64,000 bases of DNA from Daphnia carinata (taxonomy: Eukaryota; Arthropoda; Branchiopoda; Diplostraca; Daphniidae). The first letter of the stretch is position 1, and the number at the start of each line of letters is the position of its first letter. Shown here piece after piece: positions 8,883-45,092 of the stretch. Location of the stretch: positions 5,952,001 through 6,016,000 of the forward strand of contig NC_081335.1 in assembly GCF_022539665.2 (NCBI RefSeq), written 5' to 3'. The translations under genes were made by a program, and so were the position numbers. The notes under the pieces are model-generated. The model worked only from the letters and a program-made list of their open reading frames with translations, was not told where the DNA came from and did not search any database.

Positions 8883-8931
8883 CCCGGGAGCTGACGAGAC
8901 CGGGTGAGTTCTACGTGGTATGGCCGTTGAC
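8883..8931 (-). pseudogene. 5S rRNA 5' half (R1), split by element A
   Basis: This is nucleotides 1-49 of the split-type 5S gene (GTCAACGGCCATACCACGTA to CAGCTCCCGG). The internal control region of 5S lies after nt 50 and is missing, so it cannot be a working Pol III gene. Confidence 0.9.
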
Positions 8932-9211
8932 ACTTTCGACCGTAAAGGTAACAACGTCTGTTTCGTTGCAAATTGTGTAGTTGCAGTCACCTTAAAAATC
9001 CTCTAGCTTAGCGCTTGGGCCTCGTTTACTACATATAAAAACACTTAGTAATTGTGCATGATCAACTAAATGTTAGAATTTTCCTTGACGATTTCTATAC
9101 TTAAAGAAATAAAACATTATTAAATCAAATGACATACCTTAACTGACAAATCTGCCTAATGAACAGGATCCCGTGATGTATGGTACACTTGATATTATAG
9201 GTTCTGCTTAT
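8932..9211. other. 5S-U1 spacer (R1)
   Basis: This is about 280 bp between the 5S 5' end and the U1 3' end, nearly identical in all units. It contains the 5S 5' flank on one side and the U1 3' processing region on the other. No further gene is visible. Confidence 0.4.
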
Positions 9212-9375
9212 CAGGGAACGGCGCGAACGCAGTCCCCCACTACCAAAAATTGTACTCCCGAGTTAACCGCATTTGGGTTAATCGCAAGGGTCAGCCCGAC
9301 CGTAGTGCAATGGAAGGGCCTCGCCCTGGAGGAACCACCTTCGTGATCATGGTTGCCTCTGAGCCAGGTAAGTAT
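9212..9375 (-). ncRNA. U1: U1 snRNA (R1)
   Basis: It has the ATACTTACCTGG 5' end, AATTTTTGG Sm site and canonical loop I GATCACGAAGG. Stem III uses a C:G pair (TTAACC/GGTTAA) where R2-R4 use T:A (TTAATC/GATTAA), a compensated change. The 3' stem-loop IV differs from the rest (GGAACGGCGC on + instead of GGGACAGCGC), which weakens that stem. U1 recognises 5' splice sites. It is probably transcribed by Pol II from the 9376-9450 flank. Confidence 0.95.
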
Positions 9376-10017
9376 GAGTTTAGTGAATACTTGACGATAA
9401 CTCATAGTTTTTTGGTACCCAAACAATACTGACGAAGCACACTAAACCAAAGAGCTTAACAAAGAGCCATTGCGTATAGAATGGCGCAAAGAATCGAAAG
9501 ATCCCACTGAGCATAGTCGATTCCATAAAGCTCTTGTTGAAATAATAGGAAATCTACAGCCATTCTTAGGTGAGAAGAAAAATGCTTCCATTTGACGAAA
9601 AATTTCTGCGCCCAACAGCAGACGGCGAACGGCACTGTTTAACCCTCGTTAGACGCTCAACTGATGTAAACGACAGATTCAGTAAGACAAATGTTTCATG
9701 ACAGATTACCGAACAATCAATTCAAATCGAGACAACTTTAACAGTTAGAACTGAAAGGCAGTTTGTCCTTTTTAGATGAACATAACTCGTTGGGCTGCAA
9801 TTAGTTAACCATGTTTGACACTTACTAAAAGAGGTACACCATAACACTACAGCAGCCACATGATTGCAGATGCAATATTGACATACTGGGGATGACAAAT
9901 ATGTATGAGATGTAAATATACAGACATTGGTGTTACATCATTAGTTCCAACAAGATGATGCGTGATAAAGATGAGCAGATATACATTTATTTCATTCATA
10001 GAGATATCCCTTTTAAA
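9376..10017. other. U1 promoter and U1-U2 spacer (R1)
   Basis: The first 100 bp lie upstream of U1 and are nearly invariant between units, as expected of an snRNA promoter. The rest is the 3' flank of U2. I see no protein gene; short frames recur because the unit recurs. Confidence 0.45.
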
Positions 10018-10205
10018 GGGGAAGCCGATCCTGGAAGTACTGCAATACCAGGTCAACTCGTGGCGGGGGCTATGCAAGCACAGCGTTCCCACCGATTTTC
10101 AAAAATCAGTTTAATATTCTGGGGTCCATTTGAACCCGTATCAGATATTAAGCTGATAAGAACAGATACTACACTTTGATCTTAGCCAAAAGGCCGAGAA
10201 GCGAT
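10018..10205 (-). ncRNA. U2: U2 snRNA (R1)
   Basis: It has all U2 landmarks: ATCGCTTCTCGGCCTTTTGG start, the GTAGTATCTGTTC branch-point region, an Sm site ATTTTTG, and the GGTATTGCAGTAC loop IV. It is 188 nt, the usual length. Its 3' end reads GGCTTCCCC, whereas R2-R4 read GGCTTCTCC. Confidence 0.96.
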
Positions 10206-10860
10206 AACTGAGATTCAAGTTACTGGGTATTATATGCTATGCTGTTCTCGAAAATCTGACTGATGTACAAAAAAGCAAACCCCTATCCAAAAACAATGAA
10301 ATTCATCAATAAAACAGGTTGTTGCTAGAGCACCACCTGGCACTGCTAAAAGCCAATACAACTCATAAGTTTTTATCTTCTATTTTGATAGGAATGCTAT
10401 ATTAGGATGAGTCGTTCAAATATTAAGTTATTTGGGAAGCTGTTGAATGCAAAGCACCCTGAATTTAAGTCGATGAACTCCACCTAGTAGAGAGTACTGC
10501 AGACTTTAAACTGCCTATTAAACAGACAGAGGAAGGTGTTAGTTAGAAACTTGGTAAAACGTTTTGTACGTAGCTCAAATCCACGGTAGACGAAACGCGG
10601 CAATATTTACAACTAAATTAAGGTTACACAGACAGAAAACCTAACAGCATTAAACAATGTTACATGAACCCAATAATGGACGACACCCATCTAAATACTA
10701 TGCCCCCGAATGTGTAAAATTCTCATTAAAAGTGCCCAAGGTTTCATTACTGAAATCTAAACATGGGTGCATTAGCAATTTCGACATCGATTATGATGTA
10801 ATGGAGTTCGACGGGTTTACGTATGCCAGTAAATTCATTTCTTTTTGGGTTGTTTAAATA
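10206..10860. other. U2 promoter and U2-U3 spacer (R1)
   Basis: The 300 bp next to U2 match the left-arm start in reverse complement, so conservation extends at least that far upstream. The rest is the U3 3' flank. A 66-codon open frame at 10657-10857 recurs unchanged in all units, but the repeat identity explains that and nothing marks it as coding. Confidence 0.45.
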
Positions 10861-11082
10861 CCGCTCTGAAAACGCTAGTTTCCTTCCAGTGTACCACAAG
10901 GGAACATCGGAAACGGTCCTCAATAGCTACGAGCAGGAACCACAGAAGTAGTTACACCCGAAACCTGTTTCACTCTCAGAAGCCAGCGTCATTACTCGTC
11001 ATCGCGGGTTGAATGGAGGAATGTTTCTGGTGGGAAACAAGTCAAGATATACTACAGAAATGATCCTGTGAAGTATGATCTT
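10861..11082 (-). ncRNA. U3: U3 box C/D snoRNA (R1)
   Basis: The 5' end AAGATCATACTTCACAGG, followed by box A GGATCATTTCTGTAGT, matches animal U3. A GATGACGAGTAATGA box C region, GAGAGTGAAAC (box B-like) and a 3' end TTCAGAGCGG follow. The length of 222 nt fits U3. U3 guides early pre-rRNA cleavage in the nucleolus. The 3' box D reads CAGA rather than CTGA, in all units. It stands divergently from the SRP RNA gene. Confidence 0.9.
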
Positions 11083-11388
11083 AATGTTGAATTCAGTTGC
11101 TAAAGAATAAATAGATTATGCAAAATGAAACAGCATTAACGTATCTATACGAAAGTTGCCGTGGTTTTGCTAGTTAACGAGTTCATTCTAGAAGTGAATC
11201 TTGTCAAAAAGCGCTACACAGCGACACTTTGCGTTTTGTTCATTTACCACTATCAACCCGATGGCAAAACAACGACGATATTTATACCACTACGGAAATT
11301 AAACGTAGTAGTCTCTTGAAGGGCATCCAGTTACTTTCATCGTGCTCATTTGCAGAAATACATTCGATAGCTGAACACACATACTCCA
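11083..11388. promoter_or_regulatory. Divergent U3/SRP RNA promoter region (R1)
   Basis: This 306 bp lies between the 5' ends of U3 (-) and SRP RNA (+). It must hold the Pol II-type U3 promoter and the upstream Pol III elements of SRP RNA. It is nearly identical in R1-R4. I could not name specific elements with confidence. Confidence 0.5.
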
Positions 11389-11680
11389 GCTGGATGTGTG
11401 GCACGCATCTGTAATCCTGCTTCTGGGAGGCTTGATAGTGTGGATGACTTGAGACGAGGAGCACTACTTCGTGATCGTGCATGTTGATCGAGCGTCCGCA
11501 CTAAGCTCGTCATCAACATGGACCCATCGGAGGAGTTTGATGGGTGCAGGTTAGCTAAGGAGGAGCGAAACGGGCCAGGAGGGAAACTTAGCAGCCAAAA
11601 GTTCCCGTGTCGGGCAGTAGTAGGATCGCGCCCGTGAATGTGCGACATGGATTAGCCTCGGCGAAACAGTCAAACCTCTT
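11389..11680 (+). ncRNA. SRP RNA: SRP RNA (7SL) (R1)
   Basis: The conserved core is clear: GATCGAGCGTCCGCACTAAG with the two Alu-like loops near the 5' end, the SRP54-binding helix 8 region (GGTTAGCTAAGGAGGAGCGA), and the AGCAGCC and AAAAGTTCCCGTG stretch before AGTAGTAGGATCGCG. The ends pair (GAGGCTTGATAG with CAGTCAAACCTC) as helix 5. A T run at 11694-11703 is a Pol III terminator. It forms the RNA core of the signal recognition particle. It is the only gene of the unit on the opposite strand. Confidence 0.93.
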
Positions 11681-11974
11681 TCATTTTCCTTCCTTTTTTT
11701 TTTTCGATTAGGAAAATTGTTATTTCTATGTGTTTCTTTGAACTTCAGATGTGAAATACTACAACGGCAGTGACCCCCGCACTTTTGAAAAGTGTTATAT
11801 ATGTGCAAAGCTCATGCGGAATAATAATCTGAATCCTAGATATTGAATGGCGTTTGAAGTTTTCTTTTCTTTTTTTTTTTTTTTGAAGTTTTTCGCTTTC
11901 AATTCACTTCTTCGGATGGAACAGCGAATTGTGTGAATGTGAGTTCGATTTGAAATGGTAGAATGTTTGAATTT
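11681..11974. terminator. SRP RNA terminator and following spacer (R1)
   Basis: It starts with the Pol III T-run and is followed by AT-rich spacer with a second T run near 11.87 kb, which varies in length between units. No gene is seen. Confidence 0.5.
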
Positions 11975-12006
11975 GCGGCCATCGGGCGCTTCGCGCCCTC
12001 GGCCGC
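11975..12006. repeat. GC hairpin 1 (R1)
   Basis: A 32-nt hairpin: GCGGCC and CGGGCGC arms pair with GCGCCC and GGCCGC around a TTC loop, with a small internal loop. The identical hairpin recurs 88 bp downstream and in every unit. Its GC content stands out from the AT-rich flanks. Function unknown. Confidence 0.85.
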
Positions 12007-12062
12007 GTTTTCAATTGCTATTGTGGATAGTACCGTGCTTCACTTTACATTTACGTGAATTT

Positions 12063-12094
12063 GCGGCCATCGGGCGCTTCGCGCCCTCGGCCGC
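12063..12094. repeat. GC hairpin 2 (R1)
   Basis: An exact second copy of the preceding hairpin, sharing also its flanks (GAATTT before, GTTT and CAATT after). It lies about 110 bp beyond the U5 3' end. Confidence 0.85.
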
Positions 12095-12201
12095 GTTTGC
12101 AATTAGACACCTCAATATTCTTTTATCGATTTTCATCCGAAATTTGCACCCAAGCTACTCCCTAGGTTACGTACAAGAACTTATTTGTGTTTTATTGGGG
12201 T

Positions 12202-12327
12202 GCCCAGTCTAAAGACCAGGCGATCGAAAAATAAGTCATATAGACTCATCAGTGCTCCTAACCACGGAAATCTTTAGTAAAAGGCGAAAGATTTATCCGG
12301 GTATTGATTAGAAACCAGAGTGAATAT
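12202..12327 (-). ncRNA. U5: U5 snRNA (R1)
   Basis: It carries the invariant loop 1 CGCCTTTTACTAAAGATTT flanked by its stem, the CTCTGGTTTCT 5' part, an ATTTTTCG Sm-like site, and a 3' stem-loop GCCTGGTC/GACTGGGC. U5 loop 1 aligns exon ends during splicing. The 126-nt length is normal. Confidence 0.94.
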
Positions 12328-12800
12328 CAACTGAAAGTAGTTGGTATTTATTCATTTCACAACTTCAAACCACTTTGGTAAAGTAACAATGGTAAACCCA
12401 AAAAATTCAACCATAAAGCAACTGCTGGTTTCTGTTAGATTTGAGACAGTGAGTAAAACAGACGATGCTGTGTAAAGCTCATGTAAACATCATTTTTTCG
12501 TTAGATTGTGCACTAAATTAATTCTGGTTAGATGAAACATAAACGAAGTCTAGGGCAAACGAAATCGGTAAGCTGAATTGGGTAAGAAAACGAAGGACAA
12601 GTCTTCTGCTAGTTCTTAAACCTTTGTATTGAACTCTTTCGCTTAGTTGAACAAAGTGCGATTCGTTCAGTAATTCTACAAGTTTTTCGGCCTTCGATAT
12701 CCATGGGAACGAGTAACTAATCGCTTGCTAAATGCTAGAACCTAGCAGACAATGCCCATCACTAACGGAAAACTATGTTAACGTTCATTAAGGGAATCTG
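12328..12800. other. U5 promoter and U5-U4 spacer (R1)
   Basis: This holds the U5 5' flank and the U4 3' flank. A 60-bp stretch around 12437-12495 reappears, diverged, outside the array at 45.17 kb. I could not assign it to a known RNA. Confidence 0.4.
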
Positions 12801-12942
12801 CTCCTGATGGAGCTAACAAAAATTGCCGACGACGAAGATTATTTCACTCCTTCGTGGCGGGGTATTGGTTAAAGTTTTCAACTAGCAATAATCACATCTC
12901 GGTAGACCCTCATTGGTTATGATATTGCCACTGCGCAAAGCT
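12801..12942 (-). ncRNA. U4: U4 snRNA (R1)
   Basis: The start AGCTTTGCGCAGTGGCAATA, the U6-pairing stretch, the 5' stem-loop ending GATTATTGCTAGTTGAAAAC, the CCAATACCCCGCC region, the Sm site AATTTTTG and a terminal hairpin CTCCATCAGGAG identify U4. It is 142 nt. It chaperones U6 in the U4/U6.U5 tri-snRNP; no U6 gene lies in the window. Confidence 0.95.
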
Positions 12943-13344
12943 AAATTGTACATGAGAGGGCTCTACTACTTGAACCTTTCTCTCGCCAATTCTGCACGGA
13001 CGTTGATATCAAGAAAACCAAGAGAGGTGCTGCTTTTCATTGAAATCTAACAGTTCGCTGCCCTCATTTTTACATTCACATACCTACAAAGATAATAGTT
13101 CACTTTACAAATATTCCACCTATGACCACACCACGCCATGGACTGGTAAAATTCATTTAAAGTGTGCATATTACGGTGCATTTCGCCAAATCAAATGAAC
13201 GTGCAGGAATTGATTCAATTTGGAGTACAATTCCACTGAACCCGTCCCCGTTAACTTGACAATAAAATCGATAAAATTCACATTAATACCGATCGAAACA
13301 TTTCCAATTACTATGAAATAGTGTTTTACCTTCAAACTTCAGAA
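12943..13344. other. U4 promoter and U4-tRNA spacer (R1)
   Basis: The part next to U4 should hold its promoter. The rest is AT-rich and conserved between units. No gene is seen. Confidence 0.4.
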
Positions 13345-13429
13345 TGCCGTGACCAGGATTCGAATCTGGGTTACTACGGAATTATCGTTTCCCCACAACG
13401 TAGGGTCCTAACCACTAGACGATCACGGC
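13345..13429 (-). tRNA. tRNA-His(GTG) with intron, T-arm mutant (R1)
   Basis: The acceptor stem GCCGTGA/TCACGGC, the D-arm and the anticodon stem CTACG/CGTAG around TTGTGG give tRNA-His. A 13-nt intron sits one base after the anticodon, the standard nuclear position. In this copy the T-stem base before TTCGAAT is A instead of G, breaking the invariant closing pair and the B-box. It is probably impaired. Confidence 0.9.
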
Positions 13430-13541
13430 AAAATTCAAATTATTTGGCATCTGTAAAATGCTCCACACGATCAAGTTTATGGTTCATCAACAAATTGTAT
13501 TGGTGGAAACAAAAAAATTACTTAATGAAAGAAAAAGCAAT

Positions 13542-13950: not shown

Positions 13951-13971
13951 ATATTATTGCTGTGACTTAAT

Positions 13972-16900
13972 TTAAAACCATTTTTTGTAGTCCTCGCATT
14001 CTTTTATTATTTTTTCCTCGTTTGCTAGGGAAGTTACAAAAATATTCATAAAATTTGCTTTCCTTCTTTTTTTCCAGACTACAAGGCTTAGATTTGCTGC
14101 TAAAAACGTTGCATAATTTCTCTTTTGTCGCTGTGTATTAGGAAAATCTAGAAGGAAAAGTTGCTTAATATTTGGATAAAATTTTTTCTCATAAATATTA
14201 TTTATGCGCCTTTGTATTAATTTGACTGCTGGCCTAGTAGTCTTACATTGAAATAAATGGAGTAAATTTTCTTCTTCTTCACATTGATCACACTTTGCTG
14301 AAACTAATTGTTTGCATTTTATAAGTCTATCTTTTGTTGGAAGAGCATTATGTATTTGTAAAAAAAGGTGTTCTCTTTGCTGAGGCGATAAAAATTTTTG
14401 TTTTAACGCCTTAAAAGCTGGTTTAAAATTGGTTCCTGGATTTTTCAAAATAATTTTTGGTTGCTGGCATTCTTTTAAAATTAGAACACTATATATTTCT
14501 TTGGTTGTTGTACACTGGTTTATTGTTAATATTTTACTTAATTCGGTTATTAATTTTGGGGTTTCCCTTAAGAAAGCTGGAGTAATTTCACTATTTGGTC
14601 CTATTTTTACTGGGAATATATTTCTTAATTTGAGCCCTATCCAATATTTGAGCAATTTTCCGTTTTCATTTACTGGTTCTTTTGTTAATTCTCCTAAAAT
14701 TGATTTTAAAAATAGGGATTCATACTTTGTTTTAACGTTCAGAAGGCTTAATCCGCCTTCTGTTATATTTTGGTAAAGTTCTTTTTTTGCAAGTGATTCA
14801 AATTTGTGTTGCCAAATGAATGTTTGTCCAAGCTGCTGAATTTTTTCTGTGTAAAATTTGGGTATTGGTAAAATCTTTGCAAAATGATAAAATTTTGGGC
14901 ATATAAAATTATTAAAGAATGCAACTTTTTGCTGGAGCGTCAGTACCCTGTTGAAAGTACCATGGAGGCTCTGCTTAATTTTTGCCAGCAAATTAGCACA
15001 GTTTTTGTGAGTGGTGGATTCAATGTCTTGATACCATTCAATTCCGAGCATTTTTATTGAATCTTTTTCTACTATCCACGTTAAAGGCAAATTTTGTTCC
15101 TTATTCCAACTCCCTAGTTTTATTAAATTAGATTTATTTTTACTTATTTTTGAGTTGGTTGCTTGCTCGAAATCTTCAATACAAAGTTCTAAATTCATGA
15201 AATCATCGTTATTTTGTATAAAAACGGATACGTCATCTACGAAGGCATTGATTAGGTGTTTAGAGTTTGCGATTAGAGTTGGTTGAATTTTTGTTTTGAT
15301 GGAAATTAAAAATGGCTCGATAAAAATTATATAAAGAAACATTGCTAATGGGCAGCCTTGTCTTACACCTCTTTTTAAATTAATGTTTTTTCCCATTTCT
15401 CCATTTACATACACCTTGCTTGACGATTTTTCGTACAGGGTTTGTATATTTCTAATAAAAATTCGGTTAAACCCCATTTTTGATAAAACGTCATATAAAA
15501 AGGTACGATCTACCATATCATATGCCTTTTCGAAGTCTAGACTAATTATTGCCATACCTTTTTCTCTTATATTGCCGCCTTTGTAAGTATCCTGGGTTGA
15601 AAACCATTCTATAATATTTCGATATGTTGCTAAATTTTGACTAATGTCCCTGTTTGCTAATCCTCCTGTTTGTTCTTGACATATTATGTAAGGTAAAATT
15701 TTTTTTTAGTCTTAATGTTATAATTTTTGCTAAAATTTTGTAGTCGGAGCATAAAAGGCTAATAGGTCTCCAATTACTTAAAATTTTCCTGCTTCCTCCT
15801 TTGTGCAGTAAAGTAATAATTCCTGTTGTCTGGGTTTCGCTAAGTTCCTCGATATCTAATACATGGTTGAACAACATTGTTATTTCTTCTTTTAACCAAG
15901 GCCATATTTTTCTGTAAAATTCGATAGGTAACCCATCTATTCCTGGTGATTTATTTTGTGGCATGGTTTCAATGGCATTCCAGACTTCATCCTCCGTGAT
16001 TTTTTTTACTAGTTCAACATTCATGTCCTGGCTTACTTGAACATTTAAATTGTTTAGGATTTTCTTCCTTTTCACTGGGTTGTGGTTATTAAGAGAAAAT
16101 AAACGTTCGTAAGATAAAAATATTTTTTGGTGTACATCTGGGTTTTTTGTTAAAAATCCATTCTCTTCCAATTCAGTAATTATTCTGCTCTCCATTTGTT
16201 TTTTCCTTAATTAGATTGGCCACACTAATGGTTTCGTTACCGATGAGAAAGTTTAATTTTCCCCTAATCTTCTTCCCTTGTTCTTCTTTTATGTACATAT
16301 TTTTTAAAACATTTTTTAAAAAGTAATAATCTTCGAAGTTATTTTGTCCTTGGTCTATCTCAGCCTTTACTTGATCTAGACATTTCATATAGAAATTTTT
16401 CTTTGAGTTCCTTTCTTTCCATTTATTTTTTGAATACTGTGTGCATATAATTTTGAAGTTGTCTTTTATTTCTCTTTCCCACCATTGTAATATACTCCTG
16501 TACTCTTGCTTCTTTTGTTTTGCATTTAAAATAAAATTTTCTAAAACTTTTTGGAATTCTGGGTCATACAGTATACTGGTATTCAATTTCCATAGCAGTT
16601 TCTTCTTCCTCTGTTCCTCTATTCTCCCATCTAGATCAAGCATTACTGCTTGATGGTCACTAAATGTAAAATTTAAATGTTTGCATTCTTGGATATTGTC
16701 TTTATTTTTACATTGCACATATATTCTATCAATTCTAGATTTTCCATTAGGACTTATAAAAGTAAAAGCATTGGTTATTGGGTATTTGAATCTGTAAGCA
16801 TCTATTAGTTTTAGTCTTTCTACAAGGTTTTTCAGTTGATTATTTATTTTCTTTTTTTCACCTTCCCTATCTCTTGGATCAATTATACTGTTAAAATCTC

Positions 16901-17300
16901 CTAAAATAATAAGTTGTTCATCACTAGCTTTCAGAAATTTGGGAAGTGTCAGTAGAAAAAATTTATGTCTGTTTGTTGCTGTTTCGTTTTGGGTTGGAGC
17001 ATAAATATTTACAATAATTAAATTTTTAAAATGTGCTCTTATAATTCTCCCATCTGCTGCCTTTTCTATGTTAATTAATTCTAGCTGTTTTCTGTATAAT
17101 ATTATGGTTCCTGATCTTTTGTTTTCAACATTATTGTTGATTATCGCAATAAAATCTGTATGAAGTTCTGGGATTTCGTCAATGTTAGTTTCTTGTAAGG
17201 CTAAGATGTCAGGCTTGTTTTTTATTATAAATTGGTTTAAAAATTCTTTTTTATTCTTTGATTTAAGACCGTTGATATTTAATGTAATTATTCTAACCAT
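13972..17300 (-). pseudogene. ORF2 of element B (APE endonuclease, RT, zinc finger), frameshifted
   Basis: About 1,110 codons. Endonuclease residues lie in the first 240 (LNINGL, LQETN, LGDFN, RIDRIYV, SDH). The RT covers roughly 400-750 with LDFEKAYDMVD (motif A), RQGCPLAMF (B) and FVDD (C). A CDQCEEEENLLHLFQC finger is near residue 980. Two lesions break it: a 2-bp loss near 16.19 kb and 9 T instead of 8 near 15.71 kb. The final residues KKWF and the stop lie 21 bp before the poly(A) tail. Confidence 0.9.
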
Positions 17301-17307
17301 ATGTTTA

Positions 17308-17309
<2 letters not shown>

Positions 17310-17379
<70 letters not shown>
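17310..17379. repeat. A70 tract between ORF2 and ORF1 of element B
   Basis: The linker between ORF1 and ORF2 is T13 on the element strand in A, C and D, but about T70 here. It sits between the ORF1 stop and the ORF2 start, so it does not break a frame. It is a slippage expansion or an assembly artefact. Confidence 0.85.
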
Positions 17380-17380
<1 letters not shown>

Positions 17381-17391
17381 AGGGTTTTTTA

Positions 17392-18768: not shown

Positions 18769-19265
18769 TCTACAAATAGGGTGCTACTATTATGTGCTAA
18801 GGTGAAGATGAATATATATTTTTTTTTGTTTTTAATGTTTTTTTTGTGTGTGCACTTAGAAGGAAATATAAATATGAAATATGTTGAAGACTAGTAGGAA
18901 TGAGTGAAGATGAGGTGAAGATTGATATAAATAGGTTCAGTACAGAAGATTGCAAGATTGAAACAGAGTAAAGAATAATAACTGAGAAAAAGAGAAAACA
19001 GAATGCAAAGATATGAAAGAAAACTAATTGAAAAAAAATTATGCAAAAACTGAGAAAATTGACTAACAAATGAAGAAGAGAAGAATTTATTCTAACTAAG
19101 TATAATACTATTTTCACTTTTGAAGTGAAAATAATATTATTCAAACAAAAACTAACTGAAATATGAAAAATAGAATTAGATAAATAGATAGAAACTATGA
19201 AATGAGAAAACTAGCTGGAAAATTTTTCAAGTTTGTGATATTTTTGGGAGCTGTCAAAAAACACG
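18769..19265 (-). other. 5' leader of element B
   Basis: An AT-rich leader of about 500 nt running from the 5S junction to ORF1. The strand complement has open frames, but their composition is that of AT-rich leader, not protein. An internal promoter is expected for a non-LTR element but cannot be shown here. Confidence 0.6.
19105..19138. repeat. Leader hairpin of element B
   Basis: ACTATTTTCACTT and AAGTGAAAATAAT pair almost perfectly around a TTG loop. C and D have the same hairpin, and the left arm has two versions with altered loops but conserved stems. Confidence 0.7.
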
Positions 19266-19314
19266 TCCGGGAGCTGACGAGACCGGGTGAGTTCTACGTG
19301 GTATGGCCGTTGAC
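19266..19314 (-). pseudogene. 5S rRNA 5' half (R2), split by element B
   Basis: Nucleotides 1-49 of the split-type 5S gene, directly followed on the minus strand by the element start CGTGTTTTTTGACAG. The complementary 3' half lies 5.4 kb away at 13.81 kb. Confidence 0.92.
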
Positions 19315-32704: not shown

Positions 32705-32756
32705 GTTTTCAAAATTGTGGATAGTACCGTGCTTCACTTTACATTTACGTGAATTT

Positions 32757-34530: not shown

Positions 34531-34609
34531 TTTTTTTTTTTTTTTACGTAGCTTAACTTTTTTTTTTAACGGGACCCGACGTAGCTTAACTTTTTTTTTT
34601 TTTTTTTTT
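34531..34609 (-). repeat. Stacked poly(A) tails and 5S target duplications (R3)
   Basis: Same 12-bp and 23-bp 5S pieces in the same order as in R1 and R2, with different tract lengths. Confidence 0.88.
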
Positions 34610-34630
34610 ATATTATTGCTGTGACTTAAT

Positions 34631-37600
34631 TTAAAACCATTTTTTGTAGTCCTCGCATTCTTTTATTATTTTTTCCTCGTTTGCTAGGGAAGTTACAAAA
34701 ATATTCATAAAATTTGCTTTCCTTCTTTTTTTCCAGACTACAAGGCTTAGATTTGCTGCTAAAAACGTTGCATAATTTCTCTTTTGTCGCTGTGTATTAG
34801 GAAAATCTAGAAGGAAAAGTTGCTTAATATTTGGATAAAATTTTTTCTCATAAATATTATTTATGCGCCTTTGTATTAATTTGACTGCTGGCCTAGTAGT
34901 CTTACATTGAAATAAATGGAGTAAATTTTCTTCTTCTTCACATTGATCACACTTTGCTGAAACTAATTGTTTGCATTTTATAAGTCTATCTTTTGTTGGA
35001 AGAGCATTATGTATTTGTAAAAAAAGGTGTTCTCTTTGCTGAGGCGATAAAAATTTTTGTTTTAACGCCTTAAAAGCTGGTTTAAAATTGGTTCCTGGAT
35101 TTTTCAAAATAATTTTTGGTTGCTGGCATTCTTTTAAAATTAGAACACTATATATTTCTTTGGTTGTTGTACACTGGTTTATTGTTAATATTTTACTTAA
35201 TTCGGTTATTAATTTTGGGGTTTCCCTTAAGAAAGCTGGAGTAATTTCACTATTTGGTCCTATTTTTACTGGGAATATATTTCTTAATTTGAGCCCTATC
35301 CAATATTTGAGCAATTTTCCGTTTTCATTTACTGGTTCTTTTGTTAATTCTCCTAAAATTGATTTTAAAAATAGGGATTCATACTTTGTTTTAACGTTCA
35401 GAAGGCTTAATCCGCCTTCTGTTATATTTTGGTAAAGTTCTTTTTTTGCAAGTGATTCAAATTTGTGTTGCCAAATGAATGTTTGTCCAAGCTGCTGAAT
35501 TTTTTCTGTGTAAAATTTGGGTATTGGTAAAATCTTTGCAAAATGATAAAATTTTGGGCATATAAAATTATTAAAGAATGCAACTTTTTGCTGGAGCGTC
35601 AGTACCCTGTTGAAAGTACCATGGAGGCTCTGCTTAATTTTTGCCAGCAAATTAGCACAGTTTTTGTGAGTGGTGGATTCAATGTCTTGATACCATTCAA
35701 TTCCGAGCATTTTTATTGAATCTTTTTCTACTATCCACGTTAAAGGCAAATTTTGTTCCTTATTCCAACTCCCTAGTTTTATTAAATTAGATTTATTTTT
35801 ACTTATTTTTGAGTTGGTTGCTTGCTCGAAATCTTCAATACAAAGTTCTAAATTCATGAAATCATCGTTATTTTGTATAAAAACGGATACGTCATCTACG
35901 AAGGCATTGATTAGGTGTTTAGAGTTTGCGATTAGAGTTGGTTGAATTTTTGTTTTGATGGAAATTAAAAATGGCTCGATAAAAATTATATAAAGAAACA
36001 TTGCTAATGGGCAGCCTTGTCTTACACCTCTTTTTAAATTAATGTTTTTTCCCATTTCTCCATTTACATACACCTTGCTTGACGATTTTTCGTACAGGGT
36101 TTGTATATTTCTAATAAAAATTCGGTTAAACCCCATTTTTGATAAAACGTCATATAAAAAGGTACGATCTACCATATCATATGCCTTTTCGAAGTCTAGA
36201 CTAATTATTGCCATACCTTTTTCTCTTATATTGCCGCCTTTGTAAGTATCCTGGGTTGAAAACCATTCTATAATATTTCGATATGTTGCTAAATTTTGAC
36301 TAATGTCCCTGTTTGCTAATCCTCCTGTTTGTTCTTGACATATTATGTAAGGTAAAATTTTTTTTAGTCTTAATGTTATAATTTTTGCTAAAATTTTGTA
36401 GTCGGAGCATAAAAGGCTAATAGGTCTCCAATTACTTAAAATTTTCCTGCTTCCTCCTTTGTGCAGTAAAGTAATAATTCCTGTTGTCTGGGTTTCGCTA
36501 AGTTCCTCGATATCTAATACATGGTTGAACAACATTGTTATTTCTTCTTTTAACCAAGGCCATATTTTTCTGTAAAATTCGATAGGTAACCCATCTATTC
36601 CTGGTGATTTATTTTGTGGCATGGTTTCAATGGCATTCCAGACTTCATCCTCCGTGATTTTTTTTACTAGTTCAACATTCATGTCCTGGCTTACTTGAAC
36701 ATTTAAATTGTTTAGGATTTTCTTCCTTTTCACTGGGTTGTGGTTATTAAGAGAAAATAAACGTTCGTAAGATAAAAATATTTTTTTGGTGTACATCTGG
36801 GTTTTTTGTTAAAAATCCATTCTCTTCCAATTCAGTAATTATTCTGCTTTCTCCATTTGTTTTTTCCTTAATTAGATTGGCCACACTAATGGTTTCGTTA
36901 CCGATGAGAAAGTTTAATTTTCCCCTAATCTTCTTCCCTTGTTCTTCTTTTATGTACATATTTTTTAAAACATTTTTTTAAAAAGTAATAATCTTCGAAG
37001 TTATTTTGTCCTTGGTCTATCTCAGCCTTTACTTGATCTAGACATTTCATATAGAAATTTTTCTTTGAGTTCCTTTCTTTCCATTTATTTTTTGAATACT
37101 GTGTGCATATAATTTTGAAGTTGTCTTTTATTTCTCTTTCCCACCATTGTAATATACTCCTGTACTCTTGCTTCTTTTGTTTTGCATTTAAAATAAAATT
37201 TTCTAAAACTTTTTGGAATTCTGGGTCATACAGTATACTGGTATTCAATTTCCATAGCAGTTTCTTCTTCCTCTGTTCCTCTATTCTCCCATCTAGATCA
37301 AGCATTACTGCTTGATGGTCACTAAATGTAAAATTTAAATGTTTGCATTCTTGGATATTGTCTTTATTTTTACATTGCACATATATTCTATCAATTCTAG
37401 ATTTTCCATTAGGACTTATAAAAGTAAAAGCATTGGTTATTGGGTATTTGAATCTGTAAGCATCTATTAGTTTTAGTCTTTCTACAAGGTTTTTCAGTTG
37501 ATTATTTATTTTCTTTTTTTCACCTTCCCTATCTCTTGGATCAATTATACTGTTAAAATCTCCTAAAATAATAAGTTGTTCATCACTAGCTTTCAGAAAT

Positions 37601-37962
37601 TTGGGAAGTGTCAGTAGAAAAAATTTATGTCTGTTTGTTGCTGTTTCGTTTTGGGTTGGAGCATAAATATTTACAATAATTAAATTTTTAAAATGTGCTC
37701 TTATAATTCTCCCATCTGCTGCCTTTTCTATGTTAATTAATTCTAGCTGTTTTCTGTATAATATTATGGTTCCTGATCTTTTGTTTTCAACATTATTGTT
37801 GATTATCGCAATAAAATCTGTATGAAGTTCTGGGATTTCGTCAATGTTAGTTTCTTGTAAGGCTAAGATGTCAGGCTTGTTTTTTATTATAAATTGGTTT
37901 AAAAATTCTTTTTTATTCTTTGATTTAAGACCGTTGATATTTAATGTAATTATTCTAACCAT
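34631..37962 (-). pseudogene. ORF2 of element D, frameshifted in two T runs
   Basis: The RT and zinc finger run open for 721 codons (34631-36796). The endonuclease is open at 36925-37962. Between them a 7-T run near 36.79 kb and another 7-T run near 36.98 kb (6 T in the other copies) shift the frame twice. All catalytic motifs are intact. Confidence 0.9.
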
Positions 37963-37996
37963 ATGTTTAATAAAAAAAAAAAAACAGGGTTTTTTA

Positions 37997-39371
37997 CTAT
38001 AAAAAAGGGGTAAGGTTTGGCTCTAAGAATTCTGGCTCTTCTTCTTCCATTGCATTTTCTTTGTTTGTGTCTAACTGGTTTTTGGTACAATTTTGAAATT
38101 CCTCTATTCCCCCTGTAAGTAGTCCTGCAAATTGTGTTTTATCTGATATCGCCTCACTTTCTTTTGTCGCTTCTGATTCGTTTATTTTAAGTTCTTGTTC
38201 TTCATGAGTAGACTGACAAAAATTGTATTCCTTTCTACTACTCTCCATCTCCTCTATAATTTCCATACATGGTTTTTGCATCATGGAGCATAAGTCGTCA
38301 TCGGTGTCTTGTATTTCAATACTATTACTTTCTTCATTATTTTTTCCGGGGCCTATGATTTGAGTTACATTATCTTCCCAAGGAAATCCGCTGGTTCCAT
38401 TTTTCCTATTTTCTCCGTCTTCCTTATTTTCGCATGGAATCTCATTTCTTTTAGTGAACCTTTGGCGACATGTATTTAAATTTGGTTTTAATTTTTTGAG
38501 TTGTCTTCGATTCCCTGTACTTATCAATTTCGTTTGCCCTTTTATTTCGTTTCTTTCTGATTCCTTTACTTTCCCAAAATATTTTCCATTTGCTTCTTCC
38601 TTCGATCCTTTACGCCCTCGCTTTTTCTGCTGTTTCCATTCAGCTTCATCTCCAGAATCTGTTGAATCACTTCCACTGTCTTCCAACATCACTGTGCTCA
38701 TGTTTTCCGGTATTTTTTACACTTTCGGCATCCTTGACTATTTCTTTCAGCGTTCTAATGGCTAATGTGACTGCAGGACTACTTCCTAAAGCTTGGCTGT
38801 AGGTCCTTTTGCCTCCATCACAGTTTCGAGCTTCATGTTGATCAGAGTCACATCTGGCACATGTTTTAATCTGTCCTGTATAAGTAACTGAAAATCTTAT
38901 TCCCATAATTGTAATAAATGAAGGTATGTTTTTATGGATCATCATTTCCACAGTTAACTTTTCCCTTTTGGTTTTCAATAGATCTAAGTTTGGCTTTTCC
39001 CACTCAATCCCCTTAATTTGCCCATATTGCTCGAATGCTGTATAAATATATTTGAAGTCCATTTCGTCCGGGACATACTTAACCTGAATTTTTTTCCACG
39101 GACTCCCAGCAACAATTACAGGGATTTGATATATTTTCCCATTTTTTTCATATAATATTCCTTTTGCATGTTTTTGTAAAAAATTATCAAAAAGATCTTG
39201 GGTTTTAAATTTGGCTACTACTTGCTTGGTATGGTAATGTAAGTCGATTACCGTCAGTTGATCATCAACTATTCCCAAACCCATAAACCAACGATGTATT
39301 TCAATTTCTAAAGGGACGTATTCGACTTCTTTGAAACTGAAGAAAATTGTTCTTTCTCTCTTTATTTCCAT
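37997..39371 (-). pseudogene. ORF1 of element D, 2-bp deletion
   Basis: Same as ORF1 of B and C except that a CT dinucleotide is lost near 38.68 kb, splitting the frame after the CCHC knuckle. The N-terminal 230 residues and C-terminal 230 residues are each open. Confidence 0.88.
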
Positions 39372-39868
39372 TCTACAAATAGGGTGCTACTATTATGTGC
39401 TAAGGTGAAGATGAATATATATTTTTTTTTGTTTTTAATGTTTTTTTTGTGTGTGCACTTAGAAGGAAATATAAATATGAAATATGTTGAAGACTAGTAG
39501 GAATGAGTGAAGATGAGGTGAAGATTGATATAAATAGGTTCAGTACAGAAGATTGCAAGATTGAAACAGAGTAAAGAATAATAACTGAGAAAAAGAGAAA
39601 ACAGAATGCAAAGATATGAAAGAAAACTAATTGAAAAAAAATTATGCAAAAACTGAGAAAATTGACTAACAAATGAAGAAGAGAAGAATTTATTCTAACT
39701 AAGTATAATACTATTTTCACTTTTGAAGTGAAAATAATATTATTCAAACAAAAACTAACTGAAATATGAAAAATAGAATTAGATAAATAGATAGAAACTA
39801 TGAAATGAGAAAACTAGCTGGAAAATTTTTCAAGTTTGTGATATTTTTGGGAGCTGTCAAAAAACACG
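39372..39868 (-). other. 5' leader of element D
   Basis: Same leader and hairpin as in B and C. Confidence 0.6.
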
Positions 39869-39917
39869 TCCGGGAGCTGACGAGACCGGGTGAGTTCTAC
39901 GTGGTATGGCCGTTGAC
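39869..39917 (-). pseudogene. 5S rRNA 5' half (R4), split by element D
   Basis: Nucleotides 1-49 of the split-type 5S gene; the partner half is at 34.46 kb. Confidence 0.92.
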
Positions 39918-40197: not shown

Positions 40198-40361
40198 CAG
40201 GGGACAGCGCGAACGCAGTCCCCCACTACCAAAAATTGTACTCCCGAGTTAATCGCATTTGGATTAATCGCAAGGGTCAGCCCATCCGCAGTGCAATGGT
40301 AGGGCCTCACCCTGGAGGAACCACCTAAGTGATCATAGTTGCCTCTGAGCCAGGTAAGTAT
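40198..40361 (-). ncRNA. U1: U1 snRNA (R4), most diverged minus-strand copy
   Basis: 164 nt with Sm site intact, but loop I reads GATCACTTAGG, the loop I stem has a C to T change, and further changes fall in stem-loop II (CCCTACCATTGCACTGCGG). Several changes match the left-arm U1, so these two may share a lineage. Confidence 0.92.
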
Positions 40362-41003
40362 GGTTTTAGTGAATACTTGACGATAACTCATAGTTTTTTG
40401 GTACCCAAACAATACTGACGAAGCACACTAAACCAAAGAGCTTAACAAAGAGCCATTGCGTATAGAATGGCGCAAAGAATCGAAAGATCCCACTGAGCAT
40501 AGTCGATTCCATAAAGCTCTTGTTGAAATAATAGGAAATCTACAGCCATTCTTAGGTGAGAAGAAAAATGCTTCCATTTGACGAAAAATTTCTGCGCCCA
40601 ACAGCAGACGGCGAACGGCACTGTTTAACCCTCGTTAGACGCTCAACTGATGTAAACGACAGATTCAGTAAGACAAATGTTTCATGACAGATTACCGAAC
40701 AATCAATTCAAATCGAGACAACTTTAACAGTTAGAACTGAAAGGCAGTTTGTCCTTTTTAGATGAACATAACTCGTTGGGCTGCAATTAGTTAACCATGT
40801 TTGACACTTACTAAAAGAGGTACACCATAACACTACAGCAGCCACATGATTGCAGATGCAATATTGACATACTGGGGATGACAAATATGTATGAGATGTA
40901 AATATACAGACATTGGTGTTACATCATTAGTTCCAACAAGATGATGCGTGATAAAGATGAGCAGATATACATTTATTTCATTCATAGAGATATCCCTTTT
41001 AAA

Positions 41004-41191
41004 GGAGAAGCCGATCCTGGAAGTACTGCAATACCAGGTCAACTCGTGGCGGGGGCTATGCAAGCACAGCGTTCCCACCGATTTTCAAAAATCAGTTTAA
41101 TATTCTGGGGTCCATTTGAACCCGTATCAGATATTAAGCTGATAAGAACAGATACTACACTTTGATCTTAGCCAAAAGGCCGAGAAGCGAT
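41004..41191 (-). ncRNA. U2: U2 snRNA (R4)
   Basis: Complete U2 with intact Sm site and normal upstream flank. Confidence 0.96.
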
Positions 41192-41847
41192 AACTGAGAT
41201 TCAAGTTACTGGGTATTATATGCTATGCTGTTCTCGAAAATCTGACTGATGTACAAAAAAAGCAAACCCCTATCCAAAAACAATGAAATTCATCAATAAA
41301 ACAGGTTGTTGCTAGAGCACCACCTGGCACTGCTAAAAGCCAATACAACTCATAAGTTTTTATCTTCTATTTTGATAGGAATGCTATATTAGGATGAGTC
41401 GTTCAAATATTAAGTTATTTGGGAAGCTGTTGAATGCAAAGCACCCTGAATTTAAGTCGATGAACTCCACCTAGTAGAGAGTACTGCAGACTTTAAACTG
41501 CCTATTAAACAGACAGAGGAAGGTGTTAGTTAGAAACTTGGTAAAACGTTTTGTACGTAGCTCAAATCCACGGTAGACGAAACGCGGCAATATTTACAAC
41601 TAAATTAAGGTTACACAGACAGAAAACCTAACAGCATTAAACAATGTTACATGAACCCAATAATGGACGACACCCATCTAAATACTATGCCCCCGAATGT
41701 GTAAAATTCTCATTAAAAGTGCCCAAGGTTTCATTACTGAAATCTAAACATGGGTGCATTAGCAATTTCGACATCGATTATGATGTAATGGAGTTCGACG
41801 GGTTTACGTATGCCAGTAAATTCATTTCTTTTTGGGTTGTTTAAATA

Positions 41848-42069
41848 CCGCTCTGAAAACGCTAGTTTCCTTCCAGTGTACCACAAGGGAACATCGGAAA
41901 CGGTCCTCAATAGCTACGAGCAGGAACCACAGAAGTAGTTACACCCGAAACCTGTTTCACTCTCAGAAGCCAGCGTCATTACTCGTCATCGCGGGTTGAA
42001 TGGAGGATTGTTTCTGGTGGGAAACTCGTCGAGATATACTACAGAAATGATCCTGTGAAGTATGATCTT
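41848..42069 (-). ncRNA. U3: U3 snoRNA (R4)
   Basis: 222 nt. It has a cluster of changes after box A (ATCTCGACGAGTTT for ATCTTGACTTGTTT), leaving the conserved boxes untouched. Confidence 0.9.
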
Positions 42070-42375
42070 AATGTTGAATTCAGTTGCTAAAGAATAAATA
42101 GATTATGCAAAATGAAACAGCATTAACGTATCTATACGAAAGTTGCCGTGGTTTTGCTAGTTAACGAGTTCATTCTAGAAGTGAATCTTGTCAAAAAGCG
42201 CTACACAGCGACACTTTGCGTTTTGTTCATTTACCACTATCAACCCGATGGCAAAACAACGACGATATTTATACCACTACGGAAATTAAACGTAGTAGTC
42301 TCTTGAAGGGCATCCAGTTACTTTCATCGTGCTCATTTGCAGAAATACATTCGATAGCTGAACACACATACTCCA

Positions 42376-42667
42376 GCTGGATGTGTGGCACGCATCTGTA
42401 ATCCTGCTTCTGGGAGGCTTGATAGTGTGGATGACTTGAGACGAGGAGCACTACTTCGTGATCGTGCATGTTGATCGAGCGTCCGCACTAAGCTCGTCAT
42501 CAACATGGACCCATCGGAGGAGTTTGATGGGTGCAGGTTAGCTAAGGAGGAGCGAAACGGGCCAGGAGGGAAACTTAGCAGCCAAAAGTTCCCGTGTCGG
42601 GCAGTAGTAGGATCGCGCCCGTGAATGTGCGACATGGATTAGCCTCGGCGAAACAGTCAAACCTCTT
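42376..42667 (+). ncRNA. SRP RNA: SRP RNA (R4)
   Basis: Same as R1; Pol III terminator follows. Confidence 0.93.
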
Positions 42668-42962
42668 TCATTTTCCTTCCTTTTTTTTTTCGATTAGGAA
42701 AATTGTTATTTCTATGTGTTTCTTTGAACTTCAGATGTGAAATACTACAACGGCAGTGACCCCCGCACTTTTGAAAAGTGTTATATCCATGTGCAAAGCT
42801 CATGCGGAATAATAATCTGAATCCTAGATATTGAATGGCGTTTGAAGTTTTCTTTTTTTTTTTTTTTTTTTTGAAGTTTTTCGCTTTCAATTCACTTCTT
42901 CGGATGGAACAGCGAATTGTGTGAATGTGAGTTCGATTTGAAATGGTAGAATGTTTGAATTT

Positions 42963-42994
42963 GCGGCCATCGGGCGCTTCGCGCCCTCGGCCGC
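42963..42994. repeat. GC hairpin 1 (R4)
   Basis: Same 32-nt hairpin. Confidence 0.85.
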
Positions 42995-43050
42995 GTTTTC
43001 AATTGCTATTGTGGATAGTACCGTGCTTCACTTTACATTTACGTGAATTT

Positions 43051-43082
43051 GCGGCCATCGGGCGCTTCGCGCCCTCGGCCGC
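43051..43082. repeat. GC hairpin 2 (R4)
   Basis: Same hairpin, standard spacing. Confidence 0.85.
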
Positions 43083-43189
43083 GTTTGCAATTAGACACCT
43101 CAATATTCTTTTATCGATTTTCATCCGAAATTTGCACCCAAGCTACTCCCTAGGTTACGTACAAGAACTTATTTGTGTTTTATTGGGGT

Positions 43190-43315
43190 GCCCAGTCTAA
43201 AGACCAGGCGATCGAAAAATAAGTCATATAGACTCATCAGTGCTCCTAACCACGGAAATCTTTAGTAAAAGGCGAAAGATTTATCCGGGTATTGATTAGA
43301 AACCAGAGTGAATAT
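43190..43315 (-). ncRNA. U5: U5 snRNA (R4)
   Basis: 126-nt U5 with invariant loop 1. Confidence 0.94.
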
Positions 43316-43788
43316 CAACTGAAAGTAGTTGGTATTTATTCATTTCACAACTTCAAACCACTTTGGTAAAGTAACAATGGTAAACCCAAAAAATTCAACC
43401 ATAAAGCAACTGCTGGTTTCTGTTAGATTTGAGACAGTGAGTAAAACAGACGATGCTGTGTAAAGCTCATGTAAACATCATTTTTTCGTTAGATTGTGCA
43501 CTAAATTAATTCTGGTTAGATGAAACATAAACGAAGTCTAGGGCAAACGAAATCGGTAAGCTGAATTGGGTAAGAAAACGAAGGACAAGTCTTCTGCTAG
43601 TTCTTAAACCTTTGTATTGAACTCTTTCGCTTAGTTGAACAAAGTGCGATTCGTTCAGTAATTCTACAAGTTTTTCGGCCTTCGATATCCATGGGAACGA
43701 GTAACTAATCGCTTGCTAAATGCTAGAACCTAGCAGACAATGCCCATCACTAACGGAAAACTATGTTAACGTTCATTAAGGGAATCTG

Positions 43789-43930
43789 CTCCTGAAGGAG
43801 CTAACAAAAATTGCCGACGACGAAGATTATTTCACTCCTTCGTGGCGGGGTATTGGTTAAAGTTTTCAACTAGCAATAATCACATCTCGGTAGACCCTCA
43901 TTGATTATGATATTGCCACTGCGCAAAGCT
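43789..43930 (-). ncRNA. U4: U4 snRNA (R4)
   Basis: 142 nt; the terminal hairpin loop reads CTTCAGGAG instead of CATCAGGAG, stem kept. Confidence 0.95.
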
Positions 43931-44332
43931 AAATTGTACATGAGAGGGCTCTACTACTTGAACCTTTCTCTCGCCAATTCTGCACGGACGTTGATATCAA
44001 GAAAACCAAGAGAGGTGCTGCTTTTCATTGAAATCTAACAGTTCGCTGCCCTCATTTTTACATTCACATACCTACAAAGATAATAGTTCACTTTACAAAT
44101 ATTCCACCTATGACCACACCACGCCATGGACTGGTAAAATTCATTTAAAGTGTGCATATTACGGTGCATTTCGCCAAATCAAATGAACGTGCAGGAATTG
44201 ATTCAATTTGGAGTACAATTCCACTGAACCCGTCCCCGTTAACTTGACAATAAAATCGATAAAATTCACATTAATACCGATCGAAACATTTCCAATTACT
44301 ATGAAATAGTGTTTTACCTTCAAACTTCAGAA

Positions 44333-44417
44333 TGCCGTGACCAGGATTCGAACCTGGGTTACTACGGAATTATCGTTTCCCCACAACGTAGGGTCCTAAC
44401 CACTAGACGATCACGGC
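44333..44417 (-). tRNA. tRNA-His(GTG) with 13-nt intron (R4)
   Basis: Canonical copy with GTG anticodon, intact T-arm and the 13-nt intron. It lies 112 bp from the only intact 5S gene. Confidence 0.95.
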
Positions 44418-44529
44418 AAAATTCAAATTATTTGGCATCTGTAAAATGCTCCACACGATCAAGTTTATGGTTCATCAACAAATTGTATTGGTGGAAACAA
44501 AAAAATTAATAAATTCTCAAAAAACCAAT

Positions 44530-44648
44530 GCCAACAGCATCTCGTATTCCCAAGCGGTCACCCATCCAGGTACTAACGAGACCCGACGCTGCTTAGACTT
44601 CGGGGAGCCGACGAGACCCGGTGCGTTCAGCGTGGTATGGCCGTTGGC
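44530..44648 (-). rRNA. 5S rRNA: Intact 5S rRNA gene
   Basis: A full 119-nt 5S gene, GCCAACGGCCATACCACGCT to GAGATGCTGTTGGC, with closing stem and the internal control region intact. It lacks any insertion at nt 50/51. It differs from the split copies at many sites, including ACGCTGAACGCACC for ACGTAGAACTCACC and GAAGTCTAAGCAGCG for GAAGTTAAGCTACG. The 30 bp before its 3' end also differ from the other units, so it is a separate 5S lineage. It is transcribed by Pol III into the large-subunit 5S rRNA. Confidence 0.96.
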
Positions 44649-44928
44649 ACGGACGACCGTAAAGGTAACAACGTCTGTTTCGTTGCAAATTGTGTAGTTG
44701 CAGTCACCTTAAAAATCCTCTAGCTTAGCGCTTGGGCCTCGTTTACTACATATAAAAACACTTAGTAATTGTGCATGATCAACTAAATGTTAGAATTTTC
44801 CTTGACGATTTCTATACTTAAAGAAATAAAACATTATTAAATCAAATGACATACCTTAACTGACAAATCTGCCTAATGAACAGGATCCCGTGATGTATGG
44901 TACACTTGATATTATATGTTCTGCTTCT

Positions 44929-45092
44929 CAGGGGACAGCGCGAACGCAGTCCCCCACTACCAAAAATTGTACTCCCGAGTTAACCGCATTTGGGTTAATC
45001 GCAAGGGTCAGCCCGACCGTAGTGCAATGGAAGGGCCTCGCCCTGGAGGAACCACCTTCGTGATCATGGTTGCCTCTGAGCCAGGTAAGTAT
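44929..45092 (-). ncRNA. U1: U1 snRNA (R5, last copy)
   Basis: 164 nt, canonical loop I, C:G version of stem III as in R1, normal stem-loop IV. About 77 bp of the usual upstream flank remain before the array ends. Confidence 0.96.

Follow-up and report, generated by a model that had tools for sequence, protein, structure and literature searches.

An eight-family tandem unit of housekeeping RNA genes in Daphnia carinata and the retrotransposons inserted in its 5S and U2 genes

Introduction

Genes for 5S ribosomal RNA are linked to genes for spliceosomal small nuclear RNAs (snRNAs) in several animals, among them the isopod Asellus aquaticus (5S-U1), oysters (5S-U2) and the sole Solea senegalensis (5S-U1-U2-U5) (PMC6204057, PMC3464664). 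For U3, direct linkage was recorded, as of 2009, with tRNA genes only, plus U5 in Euglena (PMC2784804). Zebrafish 5S types differ in their retrotransposon target sites (Locati 2017, as cited in PMC5513064), and Utopia, a U2-specific element of the non-long terminal repeat (non-LTR) class, is listed from Daphnia pulex (PMC4640811). Here we describe a 64,000-nt stretch of Daphnia carinata DNA (NCBI RefSeq assembly GCF_022539665.2, contig NC_081335.1, forward-strand positions 5,952,001 to 6,016,000; this whole stretch is hereafter the window, and its contig C5), in which U1, U2, U3, signal recognition particle (SRP) RNA, U5, U4, tRNA-His and 5S genes form one tandem unit. A first-pass annotation made from the letters alone had proposed this eight-family unit, and it is upheld by Rfam and ARAGORN; the retrotransposons inside the 5S and U2 genes had been missed.

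Organisation of the unit in the window

Rfam covariance models applied at their gathering thresholds returned 34 matches in the window (six for U1, five for U2, four each for U3, U4, U5, SRP RNA and 5S, and three for tRNA), confirming the families. The E-values of the complete snRNA, U3 and SRP RNA genes range from 4e-12 (U5) to 2e-60 (SRP RNA), which excludes chance for these genes. Transcription within the unit follows the order 5S, tRNA-His, U4, U5, SRP RNA (opposite), U3, U2 and U1, and in the four window units SRP RNA lies on the plus strand with all remaining genes on the minus strand. The 5S and snRNA genes share one tandem repeat, the arrangement by which a tandem 5S-snRNA linkage unit is recognised.

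Unit 4 (40198..44648, minus strand) is the only complete eight-RNA unit among the four, with Rfam placing 5S at 44529-44648, U4 at 43789-43930, U5 at 43189-43311, SRP RNA at 42376-42672 (plus), U3 at 41847-42069, U2 at 41001-41191 and U1 at 40198-40361, and ARAGORN placing an intron-containing tRNA-His at 44332-44418. Unit 3 (29907..34124, minus) comprises a tRNA with anticodon ggg (34039-34124), U4 (33496-33637), U5 (32896-33018), SRP RNA (32085-32381, plus), U3 (31556-31778), U2 (30710-30900) and U1 (29907-30070); unit 2 (19595..23820, minus) comprises tRNA-His (23734-23820), U4 (23191-23332), U5 (22590-22712), SRP RNA (21771-22067, plus), U3 (21242-21464), U2 (20398-20588) and U1 (19595-19758); and unit 1 (9212..13430, minus) comprises tRNA-His (13344-13430), U4 (12801-12942), U5 (12201-12323), SRP RNA (11389-11685, plus), U3 (10860-11082), U2 (10015-10205) and U1 (9212-9375). 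A further U1 gene (44929..45092, minus; 153 bits) marks the array edge upstream of the unit 4 5S gene, and an inverted partial unit (300..1292, plus) holds U2 (300-489) and U1 (1129-1292), with U3 directly beyond the window.

One of the four 5S matches is complete (99.4 bits, at 44529-44648), and the three partial ones (38.6-41.6 bits) are 3' halves whose matching 5' halves lie ~5.3 kb away, across a retrotransposon that we call LINE-A. A tRNA gene is present in all four units when ARAGORN allows introns, with Rfam detecting three; units 1, 2 and 4 carry tRNA-His(gtg) with a 13-nt intron, and the ggg gene of unit 3 has a 12-nt intron. In eight loci of the main array described below, intron length is 12 or 13 nt except in a single copy, where it is 17 nt. 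A tRNA-Pro identity given to two window tRNAs by the default bacterial mode was replaced by these intron-aware calls. The SRP RNA genes start at 11389, 21771, 32085 and 42376, so that the repeat spacing in the window is 10.3-10.4 kb rather than the 4.7 kb first proposed, because the ~5.3-kb LINE-A separates the units; a period close to 4.7 kb does hold in the main array.

Between the convergent SRP RNA and U5 genes, each of the four units carries two copies of a GC-rich hairpin motif on the minus strand (42960-43085, 32670-32790, 22360-22485 and 11970-12095). In unit 4 the copies start at 43082 and 42994, and the 32-nt sequence folds at -26.4 kcal/mol. These hairpins possibly act as a barrier between transcription by RNA polymerases III and II (Pol III and Pol II).

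The array along the contig

Seven families (5S, U1, U2, U3, U4, U5 and SRP RNA; tRNA-His was left out) were searched genome-wide, with the best 26-50 candidates per family scored, so that all genome counts are lower bounds. A DNA search with the whole unit gave at least 62 matches, of which multi-gene ones occur on C5 only and those on C6, C8 and C10 cover single genes. On C5 the matches form separate blocks. Besides the window there is a main array, at 8.84-8.94 Mb, and there are blocks in a degraded state at 7.22 Mb and at 9.24-9.57 Mb; the main array has a clean period of 4.73-4.75 kb at 8.875-8.906 Mb. The order of the genes recurs from block to block, the insertions differ and the junctions are specific to single units, which makes misassembly of the units from separate loci unlikely. 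One main-array locus contains a run of N, a further reason to read copy numbers as lower bounds.

The window and main array together hold 19 U4-bearing units. U5, SRP RNA and U3 are each kept in 18 of them, while 5S is intact in 10 (split or missing in nine) and U2 reaches at least 160 bits in 13 (damaged or missing in six); losses are thus concentrated on 5S and U2. With such losses the ratios of the RNAs within a unit are not kept, and the suggestion that splicing, ribosome and secretion RNAs are dosage-linked is weakened, the more so as all seven searched families have dispersed genes. All seven families are intact in seven units, five of them found on the plus strand by script, with the inverted unit at 8930818-8935272 and window unit 4 taken from the same table; tRNA-His was confirmed in the three of the seven that were scanned whole (L053, L006 and the window unit).

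Retrotransposons in 5S and U2

LINE-A is a ~5.3-kb non-LTR retrotransposon in which Pfam recognises EEP endonuclease (PF03372) and reverse transcriptase (PF00078) domains; its first open reading frame (ORF1) has no Pfam match and shows a zinc-knuckle-like motif by eye. Three of the four window 5S genes are split by it in one layout, in which a 5S 5' half ending ...CAGCTCCCGG is followed by LINE-A, poly(A) and then GTTAAGCTACGTCGGG.... Between units 4 and 3 the element (34610..39869, minus; ORF1, then endonuclease and reverse transcriptase frames) separates the 5' half at 39870..39917 (minus), which ends at the LINE-A 5' end, from the 3' half at 34462..34564 (minus; 38.6 bits), which follows the poly(A) and after which come, by sequence and BLAST, a partial tRNA-His (~34307-34350) and a second 5S 3' half (~34229-34299). 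A copy 100% identical to this element lies between units 3 and 2 (24316..29578, minus; 5S halves at 29579-29626 and 24165-24266) and one 99% identical between units 2 and 1 (13951..19266, minus; 5S halves at 19267-19314 and 13808-13907). A 5'-truncated LINE-A (4804..8883, minus) joins a 5S 5' half (8884-8931) at the identical site, with the junction directly after ...GCTCCCGG, and a degraded inverted copy (1622..4620, plus) follows the inverted partial unit.

After the first poly(A), each unit shows short nested pieces of 5S target and poly(A), followed by a copy of the 5S 3' half and a partial tRNA-His whose end point is unit-specific. We read the nested pieces as probable read-through transcripts that were serially reinserted at one site, which would leave the three window insertions partly independent of one another. 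As the window copies of LINE-A are 99-100% alike, an interrupted unit could instead have been copied. On C5, C7 and C10, 5S sequence follows 16 of the 17 LINE-A-family 3' ends read (BLAST), the seventeenth being a degraded twin; these ends represent two 5S sites in a subset of the genome, and some are segmental duplicates. Two loci without a 5S match fall outside this set, L030, where the LINE-A 3' end is lost beside sequence of LINE-B (described below), and L073, which is not a 3' end. A diverged sublineage (66-71% DNA identity) splits 5S genes of an array on C10 at the identical site, and another (C7 and part of C10) is inserted ~25 nt further along 5S. In six loci on C10 and C7 (L061, L063, L065-L068) LINE-A relatives join 5S at ~GTACC(T)AGATGGG, not GTTAAGC, a shifted target in the same gene.

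A second element, LINE-B, also carries PF03372 and PF00078 and is 31% identical to LINE-A over 602 amino acids (aa). The nearest solved protein to both is LINE-1 ORF2, and D. magna and D. sinensis supply named relatives of the LINE proteins. In locus L054 the ORF1 of LINE-B is 351 aa long and its ORF2 runs without interruption for 1127 aa; in L055 ORF2 is broken into two frames. Its poly(A) meets 5S at (G)ATGGGTGACC, and seven distinct 3' junctions, read in a subset of the genome (L010, L011, L014, L015, L018, L023 and L030, two of them repeated by L054 and L055), agree to a few bases on a single 5S position.

The third element is a Utopia element, with a 1244-aa frame in which RVT_1 is the only Pfam match (3.8e-29) and for which R2-type proteins are the best Protein Data Bank match (2.5e-51); a possible C-terminal PD-(D/E)XK-like endonuclease is seen by eye only. 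Its 3' junction in L074 lies at U2 nt 39, matching that given in PMC4640811. Read from U2 towards 5S, LINE-B in L054 and L055 starts within U2 behind a sequence whose L054 version shows 88% similarity to the Utopia 5' region; the 3' part of U2, U1 and the 5' half of 5S are missing, and L012 shares the same 5' LINE-B junction. The simplest account is that the stretch separating a Utopia insertion from one of LINE-B was deleted. On C8, L046 and L047 (C8:4330192 and 4334628) show an intact U2 and, ~4.4 kb on, an apparent Utopia 3' end and a U2 without its 5' part, a layout resembling one reported for Phytophthora (PMC4640811).

The intact 5S genes of the array differ at the LINE-A site. At least 11 score 99.4 bits, and the seven distinct ones read all have GTCTAAGCAGCG where the LINE-A target has GTTAAGCTACG, and matching changes in the partner strand preserve the pairing of helix II. 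Among the eight LINE-A-split 5S genes on C5 with a readable junction, the target is exact in six, has one mismatch in one and is degraded in one, and none has the variant. The compensated variant could represent an escape from LINE-A. It stays a hypothesis because the copies in the array lack independence, a hybrid 5S gene (L022) also holds a LINE-A copy and LINE-B is present in both 5S types (three and four copies).

Dispersed genes and U6

Each of the seven searched families has at least one gene outside the array. For 5S there are at least 47 matches (12 on C5, 33 on C10 and one each on C83 and C35), and many of those on C10 belong to an array of 465-bp units. Dispersed genes of the other families are U1 at C5:8603899 and C5:4164108, U4 at C5:3932001, U2 on C10 and C8, U5 on C10 (two) and C4, U3 on C6 (two), and SRP RNA on C6 and C8. 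Among the matches listed, U1 (20 above the cut-off) and U4 (30) occur on C5 only. By eye, the sequences upstream of dispersed genes are unlike those of array genes. At L052 (C5:8603600-8605600) a dispersed U1 and a C10-like 5S, the latter a lone copy at C5:8605250 among the 12 C5 matches listed, stand 1.35 kb apart and may be what is left of an earlier linkage of the two genes.

The absence of U6 from the unit, claimed from the start, is borne out. Rfam finds no U6 match in the window, and the genome-wide candidates scored gave four matches, three above the cut-off, all dispersed on C10, C9 and C8 (the last partial), with none on C5 among the matches listed. One of the two full-length U6 genes lies in L002 (C9:1512320-1515425), where tRNA-Thr and tRNA-Leu genes follow within 350 bp.

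Several features bear on whether the array copies work. RNAalifold, run on array plus dispersed copies (3-5 sequences per family, with U4 left out), counted base pairs changed on both sides in 5S (5), U2 (6), SRP RNA (14), U5 (3), U3 (4) and U1 (2), with a few pairs broken in one sequence; the predicted folds may differ from the accepted ones. The U1 5' end, the U2 branch-site region, the U5 loop and Sm-like sites, which we take to be the functional motifs of these RNAs, are kept in the full-length copies examined. Nucleotides 1-103 of U2 have no segregating site among nine array copies, as against 25 in nucleotides 104-191. From such signatures in the sequence, we take the array genes to be functional.

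Variation in gene bodies and spacers

The claim that the families evolve in concert holds for the spacers, which are nearly homogeneous, but not for the bodies of U1, U2 and U4, where 12-14% of sites segregate among the array copies read (12, 9 and 13 copies, respectively, a subset of those existing). Over these three families, 65 of 497 body sites segregate against 20 of 900 sites in the 150-bp flanks, and 19 of the 20 flank sites are no more than 15 bp away from where a transcript starts or stops; the array-edge U1 copy, which has foreign upstream sequence, was dropped from the U1 5' flank only. When all six families and the edge U1 copy are counted, the figures are 75 of 1140 body sites and 76 of 1799 flank sites. 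U5 (two sites), U3 (five) and SRP RNA (three) are without such a body excess.

A dispersed copy shares the minor array allele at 12 of 23 sites in U1, 12-13 of 25 in U2 and 9 of 17 in U4, sites within one exchange tract not being independent. U1, U2 and U4 thus seem to exchange sequence outside the array as well, since array alleles are common to dispersed copies. The restriction of variation to gene bodies would be explained by ectopic conversion involving genes inside and outside the array, given that their homology stops where the gene does; RNA-templated conversion would leave the same pattern.

Other features of the window and assembly

Between 53700 and 56200 (minus strand), the window contains exons of a protein with fibronectin III (FN3) and DB-module domains (best DB E-value 1e-7), and weaker FN3- and immunoglobulin-like matches extend to ~50.5 kb. 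These exons had first suggested a nematode, a reading set aside because mitochondrial ND2 from contig C92 has Daphnia similis (72%) and D. magna (71%) as its best named matches; a search for SL1 gave no match, but neither did its control. Short tandem repeats with related GGAGAAATAGGACC-like motifs lie at 46480-46650, 57999-58168 and 62981-63151, on both strands. Elsewhere in the assembly, there are two types of mitochondrial COX1/ND2 (L035-L037; contigs C92 and C106), one of which occurs twice on C92, ~16.7 kb apart.

Discussion

The locus is very probably a real tandem array of ~4.7-kb units, in which eight housekeeping RNA genes have been amplified together and provide a niche for target-specific non-LTR elements, since 5S and U2 are conserved, multicopy targets. 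Each gene would be transcribed from its own promoter, by Pol II for the snRNAs and U3 and by Pol III for 5S, tRNA and SRP RNA. Unequal crossing-over would homogenise the spacers, and the bodies of U1, U2 and U4 would be refreshed by exchange with dispersed copies that ends at gene boundaries. LINE-A and LINE-B, both of the L1 group, would enter different 5S positions by target-primed reverse transcription, and the Utopia element would enter U2 at nt 39. In the window, LINE-A insertion with either duplication of interrupted units or repeated insertion would have turned 4.7-kb units into 10.3-kb ones. Several points weigh against this account. The best dispersed SRP RNA, U2, U3 and U5 genes outscore the array copies, so that the array is possibly a minor source of these RNAs; one of the four window tRNAs (unit 3) has a changed anticodon; no promoter motif common to the upstream regions could be established (information of 9.26 against 8.03-8.77 in 12 less-searched shuffles); and diversity within the array is 0.0094 in genes and 0.0044 in spacers, the reverse of simple purifying selection.

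It is possible, if rather unlikely, that the array instead supplies oocyte, maternal or high-demand RNAs and the dispersed genes the somatic type, as in zebrafish, where chromosome 4R groups maternal 5S, U1, U6 and most tRNA genes (PMC11075544). The two 5S types do sit on different contigs (the unit type on C5, the 465-bp array on C10), and array and dispersed 5S, SRP RNA, U3 and U5 differ yet keep their structure; however, the sharing of U1, U2 and U4 alleles blurs the two sets, and the array has no U6. We doubt more strongly that the dispersed genes do the work while a mostly decaying array persists only as a habitat for retrotransposons. Heavy interruption of 5S and U2, the degraded blocks at 7.22 and 9.24-9.57 Mb and bodies more variable than spacers would fit such decay, but the compensated helices, the lack of variation in the 5' half of U2, the preserved Sm-like sites and the seven units that are complete speak against it.

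Selection on linkage to hold RNA ratios fixed could account for the constant order and the single gene per family in each unit, and is equally doubtful in view of the dispersed copies of all seven searched families, the many units that have lost 5S or U2 and the separate 5S array on C10. That the assembly joined separate loci we consider extremely improbable: the repeats are near-identical and one locus contains a run of N, but a single gene order recurs across separate blocks with their own insertions and junctions. The amplified array that we favour could also be extended by a combined proposal, to which we give little credence, namely that the elements living in the array act on its RNA genes in two respects. 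A 5S escape variant, in which a one-base insertion and a compensated helix II change abolish the LINE-A target but not the 5S structure, would have spread through the array by concerted evolution, and LINE-B, at a 5S site conserved in the two types, would have invaded both. In addition, snRNA complementary DNA made by the resident reverse transcriptases would overwrite the U1, U2 and U4 bodies, so that their variation stops at or close to the transcript ends.

If confirmed, this would surpass in richness every other RNA gene unit of mixed Pol II/Pol III type known to us, and be a single natural locus at which host RNA genes can be followed together with several site-specific retrotransposons. 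One could then test whether compensated mutation lets a 5S gene evade a parasite with a fixed target, in what way RNA genes that are essential withstand heavy insertion, and whether a crustacean possesses, like fish, alternative spliceosomal, ribosomal and SRP RNA sets.

Smaller 5S-snRNA linkages and elements specific for 5S or U2 are already known. In the excerpts of open-licence literature consulted we found no eight-family unit, nor U3 or SRP RNA in an animal tandem 5S-snRNA repeat, and the largest linkage in print there is the 5S-U1-U2-U5 of a sole, in agreement with the initial view that the unit is richer than known ones. The isopod, oyster and sole units share with the Daphnia unit the linkage of 5S to spliceosomal snRNA genes, in several cases in tandem, whereas the latter unites eight families, including U4, U3, SRP RNA and a tRNA, and mixes Pol II and Pol III types. 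The zebrafish 4R block (PMC11075544) is alike in holding alternative 5S, snRNA and tRNA genes in one region with others elsewhere; it is, however, a large region of many separate genes with known expression, and the Daphnia array is a tight eight-gene unit without U6 that is known from its sequence. A zebrafish-like dual set could here include 5S, U3, U5 and SRP RNA, for which array and dispersed types are distinct; U1, U2 and U4 have alleles in common across loci.

The elements, too, have close counterparts. Mutsu and its relatives, found in 5S in zebrafish (PMC3706591, PMC11202950), resemble LINE-A and LINE-B in having two ORFs, a length of ~5.3-5.5 kb and a place within 5S; in contrast to them, a single Daphnia host carries two L1-group elements, each with its own 5S position, and one of the two has sublineages in 5S genes on different contigs. 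The Daphnia Utopia element agrees with the published one (PMC4640811) in its 3' junction at U2 nt 39, its one long frame and its R2-like reverse transcriptase, and differs in lying inside a mixed RNA cassette, where its 5' region is apparently fused to LINE-B at the place from which U1 is missing.

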